A stretch of DNA of 64,000 nucleotides, taken from Candidatus Gemmiger stercoripullorum (lineage in GTDB: Bacteria; Bacillota; Clostridia; Oscillospirales; Ruminococcaceae). Location of the stretch: NCBI GenBank assembly GCA_019119365.1, contig DWXD01000044.1:1-64000 (forward strand), read 5' to 3'. Position 1 is the stretch's first letter. Each line of letters opens with the position of its first letter. The position numbers and the translations under genes are program-made. The notes below the pieces were generated by a model. The model saw only the letters and a program-made list of their open reading frames with translations, searched no databases and had not been told where the DNA came from. This document shows, piece after piece, positions 16,367 to 23,855 of this stretch.

Positions 16367-17440
16367 ATGGATCAGAATTTTACCCTTATGGCACAGTCCC
16401 GCGCCAACTACTACACCGCGGGCAGCCCGGTACAGTTTGTCCGTGTCGAGCTGCTCAAAGGGGATGTCACCGGTGAAGTCGCCGTCTGCCTGACCTTCAA
16501 GAATGTGGGCACCGAGCCCCTGACCGGCCTCGTCATCCACTTCAAATGCAAGGACGCCGCCGGCCAGGTGCTGTGCGAGGACGACTTCTACTACGAAAAC
16601 CTCAACGCCCAGCCCGGCGACCTGTTCGGCAGCGACGACGCCGTCTTTGTGTCCGATACGCCGGTTTCCAGCGTCGAGACCGAGCAGGACCGCGCCTTCT
16701 TGAACGGCCGCGGCGTCGATTTGCGCGGCTACAAGCGCGTGCGCCTGCCGCAGCCGCGCGTGCTGCCCGGCTCCATCGCCAAAACGCTGCAGGCCCGCAC
16801 CGGCAACCCGCAGCTGACCTGCGTGCCCCAGGACACCGAATACGGCTGGTTCTGCGCCTGCGGCGCCTTCCACCCCAACGAGGAAGCTGCCGCCGCCTGC
16901 AGCGAGTGCGGCGGCGACCGCGCCTTCATCAAGGCGAGCCTGACCTCGATTTTGGAGGAAGCCCGCCGCGCGGCCGAACAGCAGCAGCGTGAGATCAACG
17001 CCGTGGCCGGTATGCAGCAGCCCGCCGCCCCGGCTGCCCCGGCCGACCCGGCGGCCGCCACCGCCGCGGCCGCGCAGGCGGCCATCGCCGCCGACGAGCC
17101 CGAACCGGAGGAGGAGCCCACCGCCCAGTTCGACCCCAGCCAGGCCACCAACGCCGAGATGGCGCGCGTGCAGCGCTACGCCCCCAACGGCCGCCTGTTT
17201 GACGACGAGGAGGACGAGGACGACGGCGGCACCCGCATGTTCGACACCGACGAAGAGGACGAGGACGACTACGAGGAAGAACGCCCCGCCAAGCGCCGCG
17301 GCCGCTACGCCGACGACGAGGAGGAGAGCGAGGACGATATCATGGCCGAGCGCATCATCCGCTGGGCCCCGCCCATCACCGCCATCGTCTGCGCGCTGAT
17401 CGTCGCCGTGTCGCTGATCTACTACTTCGTCATTGCCTGA
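16367..17440 (+). CDS. Zinc-ribbon protein with acidic linker and C-terminal membrane anchor
   Basis: I do not recognise a named family. The 357 residues fall into four parts. Residues 1-150 form a beta-rich domain with VAVCLTFKNVGTEPLTGLVIHFKCKD, resembling intracellular beta-sandwich domains. About 162-185 is a four-cysteine ribbon (CACG...CSECGG). About 190-325 is an Ala/Pro then strongly acidic linker (DDEEDEDDGG and similar). The end is one hydrophobic helix (AIVCALIVAVSLIYYFVIA) reaching the last residue. The layout predicts a tail-anchored protein facing the cytoplasm. It lies 14 bp after ftsH and before a strong terminator, so it is the last gene of the operon and may act at the membrane with FtsH (inference). 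Confidence 0.8.
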   Translation: MDQNFTLMAQSRANYYTAGSPVQFVRVELLKGDVTGEVAVCLTFKNVGTEPLTGLVIHFKCKDAAGQVLCEDDFYYENLNAQPGDLFGSDDAVFVSDTPVSSVETEQDRAFLNGRGVDLRGYKRVRLPQPRVLPGSIAKTLQARTGNPQLTCVPQDTEYGWFCACGAFHPNEEAAAACSECGGDRAFIKASLTSILEEARRAAEQQQREINAVAGMQQPAAPAAPADPAAATAAAAQAAIAADEPEPEEEPTAQFDPSQATNAEMARVQRYAPNGRLFDDEEDEDDGGTRMFDTDEEDEDDYEEERPAKRRGRYADDEEESEDDIMAERIIRWAPPITAIVCALIVAVSLIYYFVIA

Positions 17441-17470
17441 TCTGCTCCAGTACACACAAAAACGCCGCAT

Positions 17471-17505
17471 AAAAGCGCCGCCCGGTCCAGCCGGGCGGCG
17501 CTTTT
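17471..17505. terminator. Intrinsic terminator after the ftsH operon
   Basis: A perfect 15-bp stem (AAAAGCGCCGCCCGG / CCGGGCGGCGCTTTT) with a 5-nt loop. It closes the rightward run that began at RNase J. Confidence 0.88.
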
Positions 17506-17535
17506 GTGCGTTTCCCAAATCTTTACATCTGGCCC

Positions 17536-17569
17536 CTTGCCAAACGGGTGTACTAGTGCTATAATACAC
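17536..17569 (+). promoter_or_regulatory. Promoter and YtrA-like operator of the Ytr-like operon
   Basis: TTGCCA, 17 nt, TATAAT (-10 at 17559-17564). An inverted repeat GTGTA (17548-17552) and TACAC (17565-17569), spaced 12 nt, brackets the -10. YtrA-subfamily GntR repressors bind sites of the AGTGTA-N13-TACACT kind, so this is a likely autoregulatory operator for the next gene. The promoter is seen directly; the operator role is inference. Confidence 0.75.
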
Positions 17570-17615
17570 ACAAACGAAGGGGCACCCCGCCCCGCACAGA
17601 AAGGAGGCGCCCCGC

Positions 17616-17993
17616 ATGGTCAGCTTTCAGGGGCTGCGGTTCCATGACCGCACCCCGGTCTACCAGCAGGTGGCCGAATACCTCAAGCGGCAGATCCTGC
17701 TGGGCACGGTGCAGGACGGCGACCCGATGCCCAGCCGCCGCGAGCTGGCCGCCCAGACCGGCATCAACCCCAACACCGCCCAAAAAGCCTACCGCCTGAT
17801 GACCGAGGAGGGCTATGTCCGCACCGAGGGCAACAACGTCAGCACGGTCAGCCTCACGCCGGAGCGCCGCGCCTGGATCGAGGACGAACTGACCCGCGGC
17901 CTTGTGCAGCAGTTCGTGGCCGACGCCCGGGAAAATCATCTTTCTTACAAAAAAGTCATCAGCCTCATCAGCGAACTGTGGGGCGAGGAATAA
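17616..17993 (+). CDS. GntR-family repressor, YtrA subfamily
   Basis: A 125-residue transcription regulator with an N-terminal winged helix (RTPVYQQVAEYLKRQILLGTV, then PSRRELAAQTGINPNTAQKAYRLM, about residues 12-75). It has only a short C-terminal tail, the hallmark of the YtrA subfamily, which typically represses its own ABC-transporter operon. AAAGGAGG precedes the ATG. It is the first gene of the six-kilobase operon ending at 23582. Confidence 0.92.
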   Translation: MVSFQGLRFHDRTPVYQQVAEYLKRQILLGTVQDGDPMPSRRELAAQTGINPNTAQKAYRLMTEEGYVRTEGNNVSTVSLTPERRAWIEDELTRGLVQQFVADARENHLSYKKVISLISELWGEE

Positions 17994-18064
17994 ATCCGTT
18001 AGTTTGCTTTTTACCCTGTGCGTATGATGTGCGTGGTACACAAAGCCCCGCAAAGGAGGAAACC

Positions 18065-18835
18065 ATGAAACAGACCCTGCGCTATACCGCCTGGTGCTGG
18101 CGGCTGTGCCGCCGCCCGCTGGGCATGTGGCTTGCCCTGGGCGCGGCGGCCCAGGCCGTGCCGCTGCTGTGGGCCGCGTCCCGCCCGGCCAATGCTGCCT
18201 ACAGCTATGACTGGCTGCAAAACAGCGCCGGTACGCCGTTCGTCTTTGCGGTCTTCTACCTGGGTGCGGCGGTCGCCGCCCAGTGGCCGGTGCGCCAGGC
18301 GGCGGGCCGCAGCCGCGCCGCCTTCACCATCCTCACCTTCCGCATGCCCCGCCGCTGCCTGCTGGCCGGGCACATACTGAACACGCTGCTGGCGCTGTTT
18401 GCGGCCATGGCGGGGGAGCTGGCGCTGCTGTTCGCGCTCTGCCCGGCCGCGCTCGCCTTGCAGGACGCCGCCGCGGCCGCGTCCTTTGCGTTTGCGCTGC
18501 CCGCCGCCGGGCGGCTGTGGTGGGCCTGGGCAGGCAGCTACACGGTGCAGCTCCTGCTGCCTGTCACGGTGCCGGTGGCTGCAATGTGGGCGCTGGTGCT
18601 GGCCGTGCCCGCCGTGCTGGCTCCGGCCGTGGCGCTGCACCGCGGCGCGCACCGCCTGGCGGCCGCCGTGCTGGCGCTGGCCGCCGCGGGCTGCTGGGTT
18701 GGGCTGCTTTACCGCAACGGCGAACCGCTGTGCTCGCCGCTCACACTGGGGTTGGCGGCGGCGCTGGCGGCGCTGCTGGCGCTGACCGCGCTCTCCGCCC
18801 TCTGGGCGCTGCGCCGCGCCGAAATCGCCCGCTGA
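18065..18835 (+). CDS. Polytopic membrane protein, putative ABC permease subunit 1
   Basis: A 256-residue protein with about six hydrophobic segments and very few charges outside loops. The start is the ATG at 18065 behind AAAGGAGG, not the track's 17978. It resembles the second membrane protein at 20376: both open with a basic/aromatic amphipathic start (KQTLRYTAWCWRLCRRPL versus KRIAKLAAWHWALARKPF), have a YSYDWL or YATLYA extracytoplasmic patch, and share the TLPGPR/TFRMPR loop position. By context with the downstream ATPase it should form part of an ABC-2-like channel. That assignment is inference. Confidence 0.7.
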   Translation: MKQTLRYTAWCWRLCRRPLGMWLALGAAAQAVPLLWAASRPANAAYSYDWLQNSAGTPFVFAVFYLGAAVAAQWPVRQAAGRSRAAFTILTFRMPRRCLLAGHILNTLLALFAAMAGELALLFALCPAALALQDAAAAASFAFALPAAGRLWWAWAGSYTVQLLLPVTVPVAAMWALVLAVPAVLAPAVALHRGAHRLAAAVLALAAAGCWVGLLYRNGEPLCSPLTLGLAAALAALLALTALSALWALRRAEIAR

Positions 18836-18853
18836 CAGGGGAGGGAACGTTCA

Positions 18854-20362
18854 ATGCCTCAAAAGACAAACGCTGAAAAGCAAAAAAACAGACGCCCCTA
18901 CCGCGCCGCGCTGGTGGTTCTGGCGGCGGCGCTGGCCGTGTACGCGGCGCTGGCGGCCTTCCGCCTGGCCGGTTGGCCGCGCGGGCAGTTTGCCTTCACG
19001 GCCGCAAACGGCAGCGAGAGCGCCTGGCAGGGCTTCACGCTGTACACGGCGGTCGAATCCGGCAGGTCGCCCTTTGCGCTGCGGCTGGCGGCCCGCCTGC
19101 AGGACGGCGTGCTGGCCACCTGCTCCGTCCCGCCGCAGTCCGCGCAAAGCGGCTACAGCTACGCCGGTGTCCGCGAATTCCTCACGGTGCCTGCGGCGGA
19201 CCACCAAGCGCTGGACGCCGCCGCGGCCAAAACCGAAATAAGCAGCACAAGCGGCGCGTTTTTCCTGCAGCGCCGGTTTTACGGCCACGCCTACCTGACC
19301 GAGACCGACCGCGTGCAGGTGATGGAGGAGGTCACGTTCCAGGAGAACGGCCGCGTCATCGGTTCGGTGCGGCTGGACCTCGGCACAGTGAAGCTGCTGG
19401 AACCGGTCACGTTCTATGCCGAACTCTATGAGGACGCCGCGCCCCGGCGCATGGACAGCGACTACAGCCTGAACATTGATAACGGCCTGCCGCAAAGCTG
19501 GCCCGGCGAAACCGAGGAAGCTTACCGCCTGCAGTTCCTGCCCGCCGAAGACGCGGCCCTGATCGCCGTCGACCCGCTGCCGGGGTCGCCGCTTTCCTGC
19601 GGCGTCTACCGCGTGACCGAACTTTTGACCGAAGCCGAGGTCGCCGCCCTGCCCGCCGACACGGCGGTGGACGGCACGCCGATGACCGCGCTTTCCACGC
19701 CCTACGGCAGCGTTGAGCTGATCTGCCCGCTGGCGGCGGGCGAGACGGTCTGCCGCCTGCTGCCGGTGGAGGGCGGCCACGCGCTGCTGACCCGGCTGAC
19801 CACGGGCGCGTTCCGCCTCTATCTCTTTGACGGGGGCTGGCAGCTGCAGAGCGAACAGACGCTGCCCATCCGCCAAGACCCGGCGGCAAGCTACACGATG
19901 CCGGAGCGCCTGCGCGGGGACGAGCTTGTGCTGCAGCTGCAGAACGAGCAGGACCCCGAAGCCCCCGGCGATACCTGGGTGCTGCGCGTGAGCGGCGGGC
20001 AGCTGGCCGAAAGCATCTGCCTGCCCGGCGCGGCGCTGCCTGCCGCGGACGATACGGGCGGCCCGTGGCTGGCGGCCGCCGGGCTTAACGCGGACGCCAC
20101 CGCGCTGCTGACCGTGCAAACCGCCTGCCACACCGAGACCGCCCGCCTGCCCGGCGCGGGGCAAACGCTGCCCGCCAGCGCGCTGGTGGAGGACGGCTAC
20201 CTGCTGCGCGTGTGGCAGGGCGGCGTGTGCACGGCCGCCGGTACGCTGGCCGCCAACGTGCAGGCCAACTGGCGCGGCGATGTCTGGGGCGGCAGCCGCC
20301 AGCTCAACCTCAGCCTGCCCGCGCCGGGGGAAACCGCCGCCCTGCGCCGGTATTTTGAGTAA
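18854..20362 (+). CDS. Exported single-span protein of the Ytr-like operon, copy 1
   Basis: 502 residues, family not recognised. A basic N-terminus and one hydrophobic helix (about 18-40) predict a signal anchor with about 460 residues outside the cell. The ectodomain begins with a WQGFTLYTAVESG block and contains many short strands, suggesting a beta-propeller-like or beta-sandwich fold. It has no cysteine motif or recognisable catalytic signature. The second exported protein of the operon has LQGFTLQGRVEHSG at the same distance from its anchor and a shared GVYRV motif, so the two look like diverged paralogues. It lies 18 bp after the membrane-protein gene. Confidence 0.75.
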   Translation: MPQKTNAEKQKNRRPYRAALVVLAAALAVYAALAAFRLAGWPRGQFAFTAANGSESAWQGFTLYTAVESGRSPFALRLAARLQDGVLATCSVPPQSAQSGYSYAGVREFLTVPAADHQALDAAAAKTEISSTSGAFFLQRRFYGHAYLTETDRVQVMEEVTFQENGRVIGSVRLDLGTVKLLEPVTFYAELYEDAAPRRMDSDYSLNIDNGLPQSWPGETEEAYRLQFLPAEDAALIAVDPLPGSPLSCGVYRVTELLTEAEVAALPADTAVDGTPMTALSTPYGSVELICPLAAGETVCRLLPVEGGHALLTRLTTGAFRLYLFDGGWQLQSEQTLPIRQDPAASYTMPERLRGDELVLQLQNEQDPEAPGDTWVLRVSGGQLAESICLPGAALPAADDTGGPWLAAAGLNADATALLTVQTACHTETARLPGAGQTLPASALVEDGYLLRVWQGGVCTAAGTLAANVQANWRGDVWGGSRQLNLSLPAPGETAALRRYFE

Positions 20363-20375
20363 AGGGGGAAACGCT

Positions 20376-21203
20376 ATGAAACGCATTGCCAAACTGGCCG
20401 CCTGGCACTGGGCGCTGGCCCGCAAACCGTTTTTGGCGCTGTGCGCCGTTTTTGCCGCCCAGCAGCTCGCCCTGCTGCTGGCGGCGGCCGCCCTGCAGGC
20501 GAACATCGGCCACAGCTACGCCACGCTGTACGCCGCCTGCTGGCAGCCGCTGGCGTTTTTGCTGGGGCTGGCGGCGGCGCTGCTGGTGGCTTCGGCCGGG
20601 CTGTGGCGGCCCGGGGCCGCGCGCACCGGCACGGCGCTGCTCACGCTGCCCGGCCCGCGCTGGCATCTGGCGGCGGCGCAAAGCGCGCTCTGCGCGCTGC
20701 TGGCGCTGATCTTCACGGCCTGGCAGGTCGTTTTGTACGCCGCGTGCTATGTGCCGGTCACGGCGCTGCTCGCCGCCACTGCCGGCGCACAGCTCGCCAC
20801 GCCCGGCACCGTCTACTATGCGCAGATGGCCGCCGCCAGCACGCAGCCCGGTATGCCCGCCACCACCCTGTATGCGCAGGCGGCCCTGCAGCCGCTTTTC
20901 CAGGCGCTGGCCCCTGCGTTCCCGCTGGGGTGGGCGGCGCTGGCCGTGGGCTTTGCCTGCGTGGCTGTCCAGTCCGGCTGTCTGTTCTTCCACCGCGGGT
21001 GGGGGCGGGCGGCTTCGGCCGCGCTGTGGCTTTGCACCTGCGGCGGCGCGCTGCTCGCTGTGTACGGCGCCCGGCAGCTGCACCAATATGGCTTTGACCT
21101 CTACGGCGGGGCCCTGGTCGTCGGCCTCGGGGTCATGGCCGTGCCGCTGGCCGTTCAGCTGCCGTGGACGCTGCTGCGCCTGCGCCGCGGCGAGCTTTTG
21201 TAA
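20376..21203 (+). CDS. Polytopic membrane protein, putative ABC permease subunit 2
   Basis: 275 residues with about six hydrophobic segments. The start is the ATG at 20376 behind AAAGGGGG; the track's longer form (20280) is out of the family pattern. It is a likely paralogue of the 18065 gene, with matching amphipathic start and loop positions. It lies 13 bp after the first exported-protein gene and 15 bp before the second. Together with the 18065 product and the ATPase at 22629 it could form a heterodimeric ABC complex (inference). Confidence 0.7.
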   Translation: MKRIAKLAAWHWALARKPFLALCAVFAAQQLALLLAAAALQANIGHSYATLYAACWQPLAFLLGLAAALLVASAGLWRPGAARTGTALLTLPGPRWHLAAAQSALCALLALIFTAWQVVLYAACYVPVTALLAATAGAQLATPGTVYYAQMAAASTQPGMPATTLYAQAALQPLFQALAPAFPLGWAALAVGFACVAVQSGCLFFHRGWGRAASAALWLCTCGGALLAVYGARQLHQYGFDLYGGALVVGLGVMAVPLAVQLPWTLLRLRRGELL

Positions 21204-21218
21204 AGGAGGAAAAACGCG

Positions 21219-22613
21219 ATGAAAACCACCCGCAAACCCGGCCGCAGCCTGGCTGTGCTGGCACTGGCCGCCGCGGCGGTGCTGGCGGCGGCCGCCGTCT
21301 TCCACTATGCGGGGCGCGGCGTGCTCAACGCCCGCCTGATCGAGCCGCAGGGCGACCCCGCGGCGCTGCAGGGCTTTACGCTGCAGGGCCGGGTCGAGCA
21401 CAGCGGCAACGCGCGGACCACCTTTGCCGTGCAGGACGGCGGCTTTACCAGCGCGACCGAACTGGATACGGACGCCGATCCGCAGAGCTACGGCTTCGGT
21501 TCTGTCAGCTGGGGTACGTTGTGGACCGTGCTGCCGCAGGACCTGGACGCCGTCAACGCCGCGGCCGAGAGCAGCGGCGACACCCTTTACAGCCAGGCCA
21601 GCCGGCTTGTGCGCATCTGCACGCTCAACCTGCCGGACGGCAGCTGCGTGGCGTTCCCGGGCATGACCTGCGAGCTGGACGAGCCTGTCCAGGTCGCCGC
21701 TTACTGGGACGAACTGCGCGGCGGCTGGCAGGCCTGGCGCGACGCCGCCGACCCCGGGGCCCTGCCCGACGGCCCGCAGCTCTCCTTTGAAACGCCGCGC
21801 TGGCAGGGGCATTACTGCTTTGTCTGGCCGCAGTCCACCGACCGGATGACCGCCGGGGTCTACCGCGTTGACCAGGCGCTGTCCGCCGCCGAGGCGGACG
21901 CGCAGGACGGAAGCCAGACCCCCGCCGCCGGGGGAAGCTATGGGGCCGTCAGCTGCCTGTATGCGCCGCCCGAAGCCGCCCGCGTGCTGGCCTGCCTGCC
22001 CGCCGGGGATCTGATGGGGGTGCTGTACCTGGACGCGGAAAACACAATGCTGCTCGACTTCGTCAGTCAGGACGGCCGCTGCGTTGAACAGTATCCGCTT
22101 GCCGCCCAGGTCGACCCGAGCACGGCGTACGCCGAACGGCTGCCCTGCCAGCGCGAAGGGCAGGCGGCTTTCCTGGCCGGCTGCATGGCGGGGGAAGAAG
22201 TACAATTGTGGAAACATCTGGTCGTCGTACAGGTGGAGAACGGCCGGGTGAGCCGGCTGTACAATGAGGCTTATGCCCCCGCGCGCACCGCGCTGGGGAA
22301 CGAGAGCTTCGGCGGAGACCTGTGCCTGGCCCAGCTGGACGGCACCGGCGACCGCCTGCTGCTGGTGGAGGAAGCCTATGATGTCTGGCGCTGGACCGTG
22401 CGCGGGTACGAGGAACGCGCCATGACCAAGAACTGCTACCTGACTGTGCAGGATACGGCCGAAGGCAAGATGCTGTACAGCGCCAAAATCAAGACCGACC
22501 AGCTCAGCGGCTGGGGTTGGGGAAGCATGCACGGCCATGTGTACAATGCGTTGGACGCCCTGCACACGCTGAGCGCCAGCTCCTATATTGATTTCCCGGA
22601 TCTTGCCGAATAA
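21219..22613 (+). CDS. Exported single-span protein of the Ytr-like operon, copy 2
   Basis: 464 residues with a basic start (MKTTRKPGRS), one hydrophobic helix (about 10-32) and a large outer domain. The motif LQGFTLQGRVEHSGN directly after the anchor parallels copy 1. The C-terminal half has several aromatic-rich strands (WRWTVRGYEERAMTKNCYLTV) suggesting repeated beta blades. No enzyme motif is visible. AAAGGAGG precedes the ATG. Its role could be ligand sensing or coupling to the envelope, as proposed for accessory proteins of other Ytr-like systems, but this cannot be shown here. Confidence 0.75.
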   Translation: MKTTRKPGRSLAVLALAAAAVLAAAAVFHYAGRGVLNARLIEPQGDPAALQGFTLQGRVEHSGNARTTFAVQDGGFTSATELDTDADPQSYGFGSVSWGTLWTVLPQDLDAVNAAAESSGDTLYSQASRLVRICTLNLPDGSCVAFPGMTCELDEPVQVAAYWDELRGGWQAWRDAADPGALPDGPQLSFETPRWQGHYCFVWPQSTDRMTAGVYRVDQALSAAEADAQDGSQTPAAGGSYGAVSCLYAPPEAARVLACLPAGDLMGVLYLDAENTMLLDFVSQDGRCVEQYPLAAQVDPSTAYAERLPCQREGQAAFLAGCMAGEEVQLWKHLVVVQVENGRVSRLYNEAYAPARTALGNESFGGDLCLAQLDGTGDRLLLVEEAYDVWRWTVRGYEERAMTKNCYLTVQDTAEGKMLYSAKIKTDQLSGWGWGSMHGHVYNALDALHTLSASSYIDFPDLAE

Positions 22614-22628
22614 AAGGAGGGGACTGCA

Positions 22629-23360
22629 ATGATCGAAGTCAAGGACCTGAAAAAGACCTGGCGGCGCCGCGGCAAGCCGGTCGGCCTGCTGGGCGCGAGC
22701 TTTACGGTGCCAAACGGGCAGATCGTAGGCGTGCTGGGCGACAACGGCGCAGGCAAAACCACGCTGCTGCGCACGATGGCCGGGCTTTTGCCCGCGCAGG
22801 GCGGCACGGCGCTGTTCGACGGCCGCCCCGCCGCCAGCCAGTACGAGCGGCTCAGCTTCATCACCGGCGAAGGCAGCTACTACCCCGCCATGACGGTGGG
22901 GGAGTACGGCGCGTTTTTGGCCGACCTGCACCCGGCGTTCGACCCGGCGCGCTACGCGGCGTTTTTGCAGTTTTTCTCCCTGGCCGAAACCGACCGCATC
23001 GGCCACCTTTCCACCGGGCAGAAAGCGCGGGTGGAGCTGGCCGCCGGGTTTGCCAAGCGGGCGGACTATTACCTGATGGACGAGCCGTTTTTGGGCAAGG
23101 ACGCCTTCACCCGCAAGGACGTTCTCAAGCTGATGAGCGGCGTGCTGCACGGCGGCGAGACCATTTTGCTGACGACGCATTATCTGGATGATGTGGAGCA
23201 GTTTTTGGACCGCGTTCTTGTGCTGCATGACGGCGTCATCGCCGATGATTTCCTCATGGAGGACCTGCAGCAGAGCGGCGAAACGCTGCTGGCCCGCCTG
23301 GGCCGCACCTGCGGGTGGGACCCCGCGCGCTACCTGCAGTTCGGCCGGGGGGAGGGGTGA
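22629..23360 (+). CDS. ABC transporter ATPase, YtrB-like
   Basis: A 243-residue nucleotide-binding subunit. Walker A is GDNGAGKTTLLR (about residue 39), the signature is HLSTGQKARVEL (threonine replacing the second position of LSGGQ), Walker B plus catalytic acid is YYLMDEPF, and the H-loop is LLTTHYLDD. All functional positions look present. The LSTGQ signature and the long spacing MTVGEYGAFLADLHPAFD are typical of Ytr/GntR-linked ATPases. It is the only ATPase of the operon and would pair with the two membrane proteins. Confidence 0.9.
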   Translation: MIEVKDLKKTWRRRGKPVGLLGASFTVPNGQIVGVLGDNGAGKTTLLRTMAGLLPAQGGTALFDGRPAASQYERLSFITGEGSYYPAMTVGEYGAFLADLHPAFDPARYAAFLQFFSLAETDRIGHLSTGQKARVELAAGFAKRADYYLMDEPFLGKDAFTRKDVLKLMSGVLHGGETILLTTHYLDDVEQFLDRVLVLHDGVIADDFLMEDLQQSGETLLARLGRTCGWDPARYLQFGRGEG

Positions 23361-23363
23361 ACC

Positions 23364-23582
23364 ATGCCCCGCCTGACCCCCAACGAAGCCGCCCTCTGGC
23401 GGCTTTTGCAGGCGCGCCGCGGCCAGGCCGTGCCCCGCGCGGAGCTGTTGGCGGGCGTCGGCTGGCCGGCCGCCGCCCGCACCCGCACGCTGGATGTGCA
23501 CATCCAGCACCTGCGCCGCAAACTCGGCCCCGCCGCCCGCATCGAGACCGTGTTCAAGGTCGGCTACCGCCTGGTGGGCTGA
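23364..23582 (+). CDS. Stand-alone OmpR-type winged-helix protein
   Basis: Only 72 residues, all corresponding to the Trans_reg_C DNA-binding domain of OmpR/PhoB response regulators: LTPNEAALWRLLQARRGQAV, the recognition helix TRTLDVHIQHLRRKLG, and the wing ending VFKVGYRLVG. There is no receiver domain and no room for one. The ATG follows the ATPase stop by 3 bp, so it is coupled to the transporter operon. It may be a second regulator of the system; its partner or signal is unknown. The sequence match is clear even though the protein is very short. Confidence 0.88.
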   Translation: MPRLTPNEAALWRLLQARRGQAVPRAELLAGVGWPAAARTRTLDVHIQHLRRKLGPAARIETVFKVGYRLVG

Positions 23583-23595
23583 CAAAACAGAAAAG

Positions 23596-23643
23596 AAAAA
23601 CCGGCGCCCGCTGCCATTCCCAAGGCAGCGGGCGCCGGTTTTT
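23596..23643. terminator. Strong bidirectional terminator
   Basis: A perfect 20-bp stem: AAAAACCGGCGCCCGCTGCC at 23596-23615 with its complement at 23624-23643 and an 8-nt loop. It ends the Ytr-like operon on the plus strand. Confidence 0.92.
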
Positions 23644-23715: not shown

Positions 23716-23855
23716 ACCTCTGTAGGGGCCGATTCCATATCGGCCCGCGCCGCGCCGCCGCAACCCCCGCGGGCGGATATCGAATCCGCCCCTGCGACCG
23801 GCCACAGGGCCCGCAACCCCTGTAGGGGACGATGCTCGCATCGTCCCGCGGCACT
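23716..23855. repeat. Cluster of three REP-like palindromes
   Basis: Three GTAGGGG-type palindromic units: GGGCCGAT-tccat-ATCGGCCC (23726-23746), GGGCGGAT-atcga-ATCCGCCC in reverse orientation (23771-23791), and GGGACGATGC-tc-GCATCGTCCC (23826-23847). Units 1 and 3 share the flank CTGTAGGGG and a CCCGCG tail; unit 2 has the mirror image. They look like dispersed intergenic REP-type repeats. Apart from these and the adjacent terminator, the 23583-23914 gap shows no gene. Confidence 0.8.

Follow-up and report, generated by a model that had tools for sequence, protein, structure and literature searches.

A seven-gene operon bounded by two terminators

The window, by which we mean the whole stretch of 64,000 nucleotides analysed, carries seven open reading frames at positions 17616-23582, all on the plus strand and provided with ribosome-binding sites, in the order R1-M1-E1-M2-E2-A-R2. 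R1 encodes a GntR/YtrA-type repressor, M1 and M2 permease-like membrane proteins, E1 and E2 membrane-anchored exported beta proteins, A an ABC ATPase, and R2 a stand-alone OmpR-type winged helix. The gaps between them measure, in gene order, 71, 18, 13, 15, 15 and 3 bp. At the 5′ boundary lies the hairpin terminator of the upstream gene (17466-17510, plus strand; RNA fold -43.3 kcal/mol, z -9.6), and at the 3′ boundary a stem-loop terminator with a 20-pair stem (23596-23643). A sequence-only reading of this DNA had proposed the same gene order, gaps of 3-71 bp and strong terminators on either side; all seven frames were recovered in place, together with a stem-loop at each end. In relatives, the start and stop codons of M and E overlap (ATGA, e.g. 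in L024 and L026), suggesting that the two are translationally coupled.

A PADLOC search of the operon returned a weak helix-turn-helix match for R1 and, for A, generic ATPase models, and nothing more, so that a reading as a defence system was dropped. Just 3′ of the operon (23720-23832) there are two CTGTAGGGG(N)2GA elements, each in a palindromic context. This 13-bp pattern has 102 copies in the genome (57 forward and 45 reverse; 0 and 1 for the reversed-pattern control), often paired about 140 bp apart, and is an interspersed repeat.

R1 and a conserved operator over the -10 box

R1 (17616-17993, plus strand; 125 aa) is the first gene of the operon, as expected of YtrA-subfamily regulators. 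Its helix-turn-helix occupies residues 16-72 (Pfam GntR, 1.5e-12) and is followed by a short C-terminal part, in line with the winged helix and short (about 50 aa) C-terminal region that define the YtrA subfamily of GntR regulators, whose operators are about 24 bp in length and have widely separated half-sites (PMC6746942). Upstream of R1 we found a predicted sigma-70 promoter, TTGCCA-17-TATAAT (17537-17565, plus strand), with 11 of 12 consensus matches, and over its -10 box a palindrome of the form GTGTACTA-N6-TAATACAC (17548-17569). The earlier assignment of R1 as a YtrA-type repressor thus agrees with its helix-turn-helix, its short C-terminal part and a long, spaced palindromic operator.

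In the genus, each of the 16 promoters checked has the 22-bp palindrome, GTGTAYTA-N6-TAATACAC or a near variant, overlapping its -10 box, and the same type of operator was present at each of ten distant loci examined, at some of them twice. The 21-bp operator pattern is expected 0 times in the window. Because the genome contains a single exact copy, and one further copy with two mismatches, R1 appears to act locally, as an autorepressor that would bind the predicted operator and repress the operon from over the -10 box.

A single ATPase and two permease-like membrane proteins

The ATPase A (22629-23360, plus strand; 243 aa; Pfam ABC_tran, 8e-22) has a Walker A motif (NGAGKTT), a signature (LSTGQ), a Walker B motif (YLMDEP) and an H-loop histidine (H184) that are invariant in 16 relatives, and PmtA is among its closest NCBIfam ATPase models. 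It is the only ATPase gene in the operon, which supports the earlier proposal that one ATPase serves both M-E pairs.

M1 (18065-18835, plus strand; 256 aa) and M2 (20376-21203, plus strand; 275 aa) matched no Pfam family, ABC2_membrane included, and no NCBIfam family, and a PDB sequence search with M profiles gave chance matches alone. The AlphaFold model of M2 (pLDDT 90, pTM 0.85) consists of six long helices. Its best seven PDB fold matches were all NosY chains of NosDFY complexes, with CcmB in ninth place and PmtCD lower in the list; statistically, all these matches are weak (best E 0.19, probability 0.91, TM 0.42). We therefore read M2 as a permease of the ABC-2/type V kind on the consistency of a list of weak fold matches, and not on any single score.

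The exported proteins form an undescribed family

E1 (18854-20362, plus strand; 502 aa) and E2 (21219-22613, plus strand; 464 aa) had been described from the sequence alone as exported proteins of no recognised family, and Pfam and NCBIfam were indeed blank for both, as they were for M1 and M2; searching the PDB with E profiles gave no sequence match either. The AlphaFold model of E2 (pLDDT 84, pTM 0.83) has one helix at residues 7-35, and the rest of the protein is an almost all-beta ectodomain. The N-terminus is rich in Lys and Arg, which by the positive-inside rule is consistent with an ectodomain located outside the cell. Among the PDB fold matches of E2, the leaders were mostly beta-propellers of many kinds, with some glycoside hydrolases, and no fold family can be named since TM was at most 0.32. 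The fold is thus putatively propeller-like, a propeller being a closed ring of four-stranded blades. A search of a viral structure library gave scattered low-TM beta proteins and no useful match, and a sequence search of genome contigs with E found no relative.

The (W/L)QGFTL motif noticed earlier behind the membrane anchor proved to be real and family-wide: in an alignment of 30 E sequences F53 is invariant, and G52 and L50 are kept in at least 90%. Most conserved columns hold Gly or a hydrophobic residue. E225 is the sole acidic residue to reach 90%, so that no catalytic set is conserved, and an enzymatic reading of E was set aside on this ground. Taken with its distribution (see below), E is an undescribed family of surface-tethered beta proteins that is genetically tied to an ABC ATPase.

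ATPase and E co-occur in three layouts

We searched 35 genomes of the genus, counting the ATPase as present at E <= 1e-70. ATPase and E were found in exactly the same 18 genomes. The layout R1-M-E-A occurs in three of them (L035, L037 and L038), R1-M-E-E-A in seven (L027-L033) and R1-M-E-M-E-A in eight including the window (L021-L026, L034 and L036); in this double-pair set the operon of G006 is split over two contigs and that of G023 is cut by contig ends. The operon is thus not a chance arrangement, since eight genomes in the genus keep its order, and in 18 of 18 genomes the ATPase is found together with E. As regards the earlier proposal, the exported proteins did not turn out to be unrelated known enzymes, and the neighbourhood survey found the gene order conserved in relatives.

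Where the contigs reach, the double-pair operon sits, in the genomes examined, between a pair formed by ftsH and a gene of 357 aa (16367-17440 in the window) and a pseudouridine-synthase-like gene. The 357-aa gene, which lies upstream of the operon and beside ftsH, is present in 33 of the 35 genomes (loci examined: the window and L139-L168), and in most genomes without an operon at the ftsH site it adjoins the pseudouridine-synthase-like gene directly. From this we conclude that the double-pair operon is an islet inserted at a fixed site. Operons without R2 are located elsewhere.

Outside the genus, family-wide and order-wide searches showed the E family to be sparse, its recurrence there being judged from samples of genomes. 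Within the order we found R1-M-E-A, R1-M-E-E-A, R1-M-E-M-E and R1-M-A-E-E loci, again sparsely. At one R1-M-E-M-E locus (L053, 8173-11066, in G313) a truncated second E precedes a transposase-like gene on the opposite strand, and the ATPase gene lies past the latter.

Duplication of the M-E pair and unequal rates of change

Pairwise BLAST related the two pairs marginally (E = 0.005 for E1 vs E2 and 0.012 for M1 vs M2). Profiles built from orthologues placed the relationship beyond doubt, with hhalign E-values of 6e-41 over 424 columns for E1 vs E2 and 1.5e-32 over 254 columns for M1 vs M2, against 0.1 to 0.6 for E with shuffled columns and 0.26 for the unrelated pair M1-E1. Both proteins are therefore paralogous between the pairs, and the M-E pair as a whole was duplicated, as had been suspected from the sequence.

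The trees of M and E are concordant. Across the double-pair operons M1 forms one group and E1 another, and the same is true of M2 and E2 in the main clade; the second pair of L036 has no firm placement. M and E from most operons with a single M fall on the M2/E2 side, suggesting that in these the other pair was lost or never gained. In the M-E-E operons E was then duplicated once more. In the double pair of L053, from outside the genus, the two M copies group together on long branches, which perhaps reflects an independent duplication, and in L054 E1 and E2 likewise group with each other (support 96/95, again on long branches), which may mark yet another separate duplication. In all, E has been duplicated several times beside an ATPase that is always single. 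Two M and two E positions around an ATPase dimer would account for all three layouts.

Diversification is also several times faster in the outer parts than in the motor. Comparing the window with G023 gave dN/dS values of 0.64-0.69 for E1, E2 and M1, 0.34 for M2 and 0.14 for A. For the pair G003 and G018 the values were 0.35-0.43 for both E proteins, 0.18 for M and 0.09 for A. Such a contrast would arise if the outer parts were following a ligand that changes, and since no value exceeds 1 it indicates relaxed or diversifying pressure and not proven positive selection.

R2 accompanies an upstream motif and weak -35 boxes

R2 (23364-23582, plus strand) is a protein of 72 aa in which the Trans_reg_C domain (Pfam, 2e-15) covers residues 3-70, i.e. 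a winged helix alone, with no phosphorylatable receiver domain by Pfam. In each of the seven double-pair operons for which the 3′ end is available it follows A, and no other operon has it; the lone OmpR-type winged helix pointed out by the sequence-only reading is thus a conserved component of these operons. The stretch of the recognition helix, TRTLDVHIQ, is kept in all seven copies.

Upstream of the promoter in the window lies AATCTTTACATCTG (17518-17531, plus strand), the proposed R2 site, which is identical in six R2-type operons. The seventh (L036), which has the most diverged R2, carries ACTGTTACATCTTT at the same position, with the variant core TTACATCT. We did not find AATCTTTACATCTG near operons without R2, and in the genome it is unique even if one mismatch is allowed. 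From its end to the TTG of the -35 box there are 5 nt in the window and in G006, and 15-16 nt in four others, spacings that differ by about one helical turn. The -35 boxes of the seven R2 promoters are all weak (TTGCCA, TTGCGC, TTGTCA, TTGCCA, TTGCTT, TTGTAT and TTGCTT), and at eight of nine genus promoters without R2 the box is TTGACA or TTGACG. The ninth, L038 (TTGCAT), and L050 outside the genus (TTGCGC) are exceptions to this rule, both being weak and both lacking R2.

Conservation of AATCTTTACATCTG by descent alone is unlikely, since synonymous sites of R1 and A approach saturation when the window is compared with R2 operons further away in sequence (pS 0.58-0.77). The R2 operons all lie at one chromosomal site and form one lineage, so that the correlation between R2 and the motif amounts to few independent events. 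The pairing of AATCTTTACATCTG with weak -35 boxes, at spacings one turn apart, suggests that R2 is a dedicated activator acting through AATCTTTACATCTG: in double-pair operons this OmpR-type domain without a receiver would bind the upstream motif and activate a weakened promoter.

A proposed machine and its relation to known systems

The operon had been labelled Ytr-like, and here our results part from the earlier description. This is not a Ytr operon: shared with ytrGABCDEF of B. subtilis are only the class of the leading repressor, YtrA-type, and the style of its operator, a long palindrome with a spacer. The ytr operon has two ATPases (YtrB and YtrE) and the YtrF protein (PMC12772383), whereas here there is one ATPase, accompanied by R2 and by two exported beta proteins that ytr lacks; no YtrF-type (FtsX/MacB-type) or other Pfam family was found in M1, E1, M2 or E2. 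Nor does the analogy carry over the envelope-stress role that had been suggested as a possibility: ytr of B. subtilis is induced by lipid II cycle inhibitors, yet a consistent role in antibiotic survival could not be shown for it (PMC12772383).

NosDFY (PDB 7o0y, 7znq) offers a parallel in its parts: one ATPase, a six-helix permease that tops the weak fold list of M2, and an exported all-beta partner. NosD has a beta-helix fold, whereas E is membrane-anchored, belongs to another sequence family and is predicted to be propeller-like. Gene layout and regulator also differ, and by Pfam there are no nos genes in this operon.

Gene order, homology, duplication, co-occurrence and the conservation of operator and motif are established by the data above; beyond them we propose the following. 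A homodimeric ATPase (A2) would drive two permease subunits (M1M2), with a surface-tethered E sitting on each permease and handling or sensing something outside the cell. The two M and two E positions are taken from the ME, MEE and MEME layouts, each of which has a single ATPase; duplication of an M-E unit gave the double-pair form and would thereby have turned a homodimer into a heterodimer. Such a machine would work like NosDFY, or like an exporter of the Pmt type to which an external cap has been added. Its cargo or signal would most likely be a fast-changing envelope-active compound, for example a peptide or lipid, a guess drawn by analogy with the release of PmtR by exported peptides (PMC5080381) and the induction of ytr described above. 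We consider the architecture itself probable. To the full model, in which A2, M1M2 and E1E2 form an ABC-2/type V machine repressed by R1 and activated by R2, with the cargo guessed, we give an even chance, and the function class, in which the surface proteins of an ABC-2-type machine handle or detect a compound active at the envelope, we hold with somewhat less than even confidence.

An alternative is that the operon encodes an ordinary YtrA-regulated ABC-2 exporter of peptides or lipids, like PmtR-PmtABCD of Staphylococcus aureus, in which E would be a passive accessory or binding protein and the exported compound would free R1. The likeness extends to a YtrA-subfamily repressor gene placed first in an ABC-2 operon, to an operator of the length expected for R1 (PMC6746942), to the PmtA-like score of A and to PmtCD among the fold matches of M2; moreover, the exported peptides themselves release PmtR, which is a YtrA-type repressor (PMC5080381). 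Pmt, however, comprises two ATPases plus two permeases and lacks large exported subunits, whereas this operon has a single ATPase gene, exported proteins in pairs and a winged-helix regulator in addition. Its strict linkage to the ATPase and its repeated duplication make E look central and not accessory. We consider an ordinary exporter unlikely.

Alternatively, the proteins may form a sensor and not a transporter, with E binding an external compound, M and A relaying the signal and R2 as the output, in a kind of BceAB-type flux sensing without a kinase. R2 would suit this role, being an output domain that binds DNA, is restricted to double-pair operons and has a candidate site at their promoter, and E diversifies fast. 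R2 has neither a receiver nor a visible link to the membrane proteins, however, and since most layouts (ME and MEE) lack R2, a function common to all of them cannot consist in sensing through it, which makes a sensor improbable to us. That E proteins are surface enzymes of a beta-propeller-type fold (glycosidase or lyase), whose product the ABC part exports or imports, would accommodate the glycoside hydrolases among the E2 fold matches, but is highly improbable given very low TM scores and no conserved catalytic set.

Returning to the machine proposed above, what is new at this locus is the E family, the conserved 22-bp operator over the -10 box and AATCTTTACATCTG at R2 operons. The parts list is testable because relatives carry one-pair and mixed versions: the natural ME, MEE and MEME layouts, with the same ATPase, make subunit stoichiometry directly accessible to experiment. 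The correlation of R2, motif and -35 box offers a concrete candidate case of a receiver-less OmpR domain serving as a local activator, and the slow change of the ATPase beside the fast change of E suggests an external ligand on which selection acts in gut communities. A wider reading, which we regard as doubtful, is that these operons represent a new class of ABC machines in Clostridia in which the ATPase would drive surface-tethered propeller-like pairs and not a solute, in homodimeric, mixed and heterodimeric forms, with a receiver-less OmpR domain recruited as local activator upon duplication of the pair.

Distant relatives are a Flavonifractor locus (L056, R1-M-A-E-E) and three R1-M-S-A-E loci (L057-L059) in MAGs labelled Agathobacter, Clostridia and Pygmaiobacter. 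They share with the window operon homologous M and E proteins (hhalign E 2e-6 and 8e-8), the ATPase group and the type of operator, and differ from it in that E is placed after A and R2 is missing. L057-L059 differ further by a single E and an extra small membrane protein, S (about 160 aa), encoded between M and A (L057 7510-7986, L058 7487-7996, L059 7489-7980). We considered S as a half permease and rejected this, as one loop alone aligned (the loop between helices 2 and 3 of M; E 0.24, not significant). In these single-E operons S has a conserved HYxYHYxxSKxxYxMKRLP motif.
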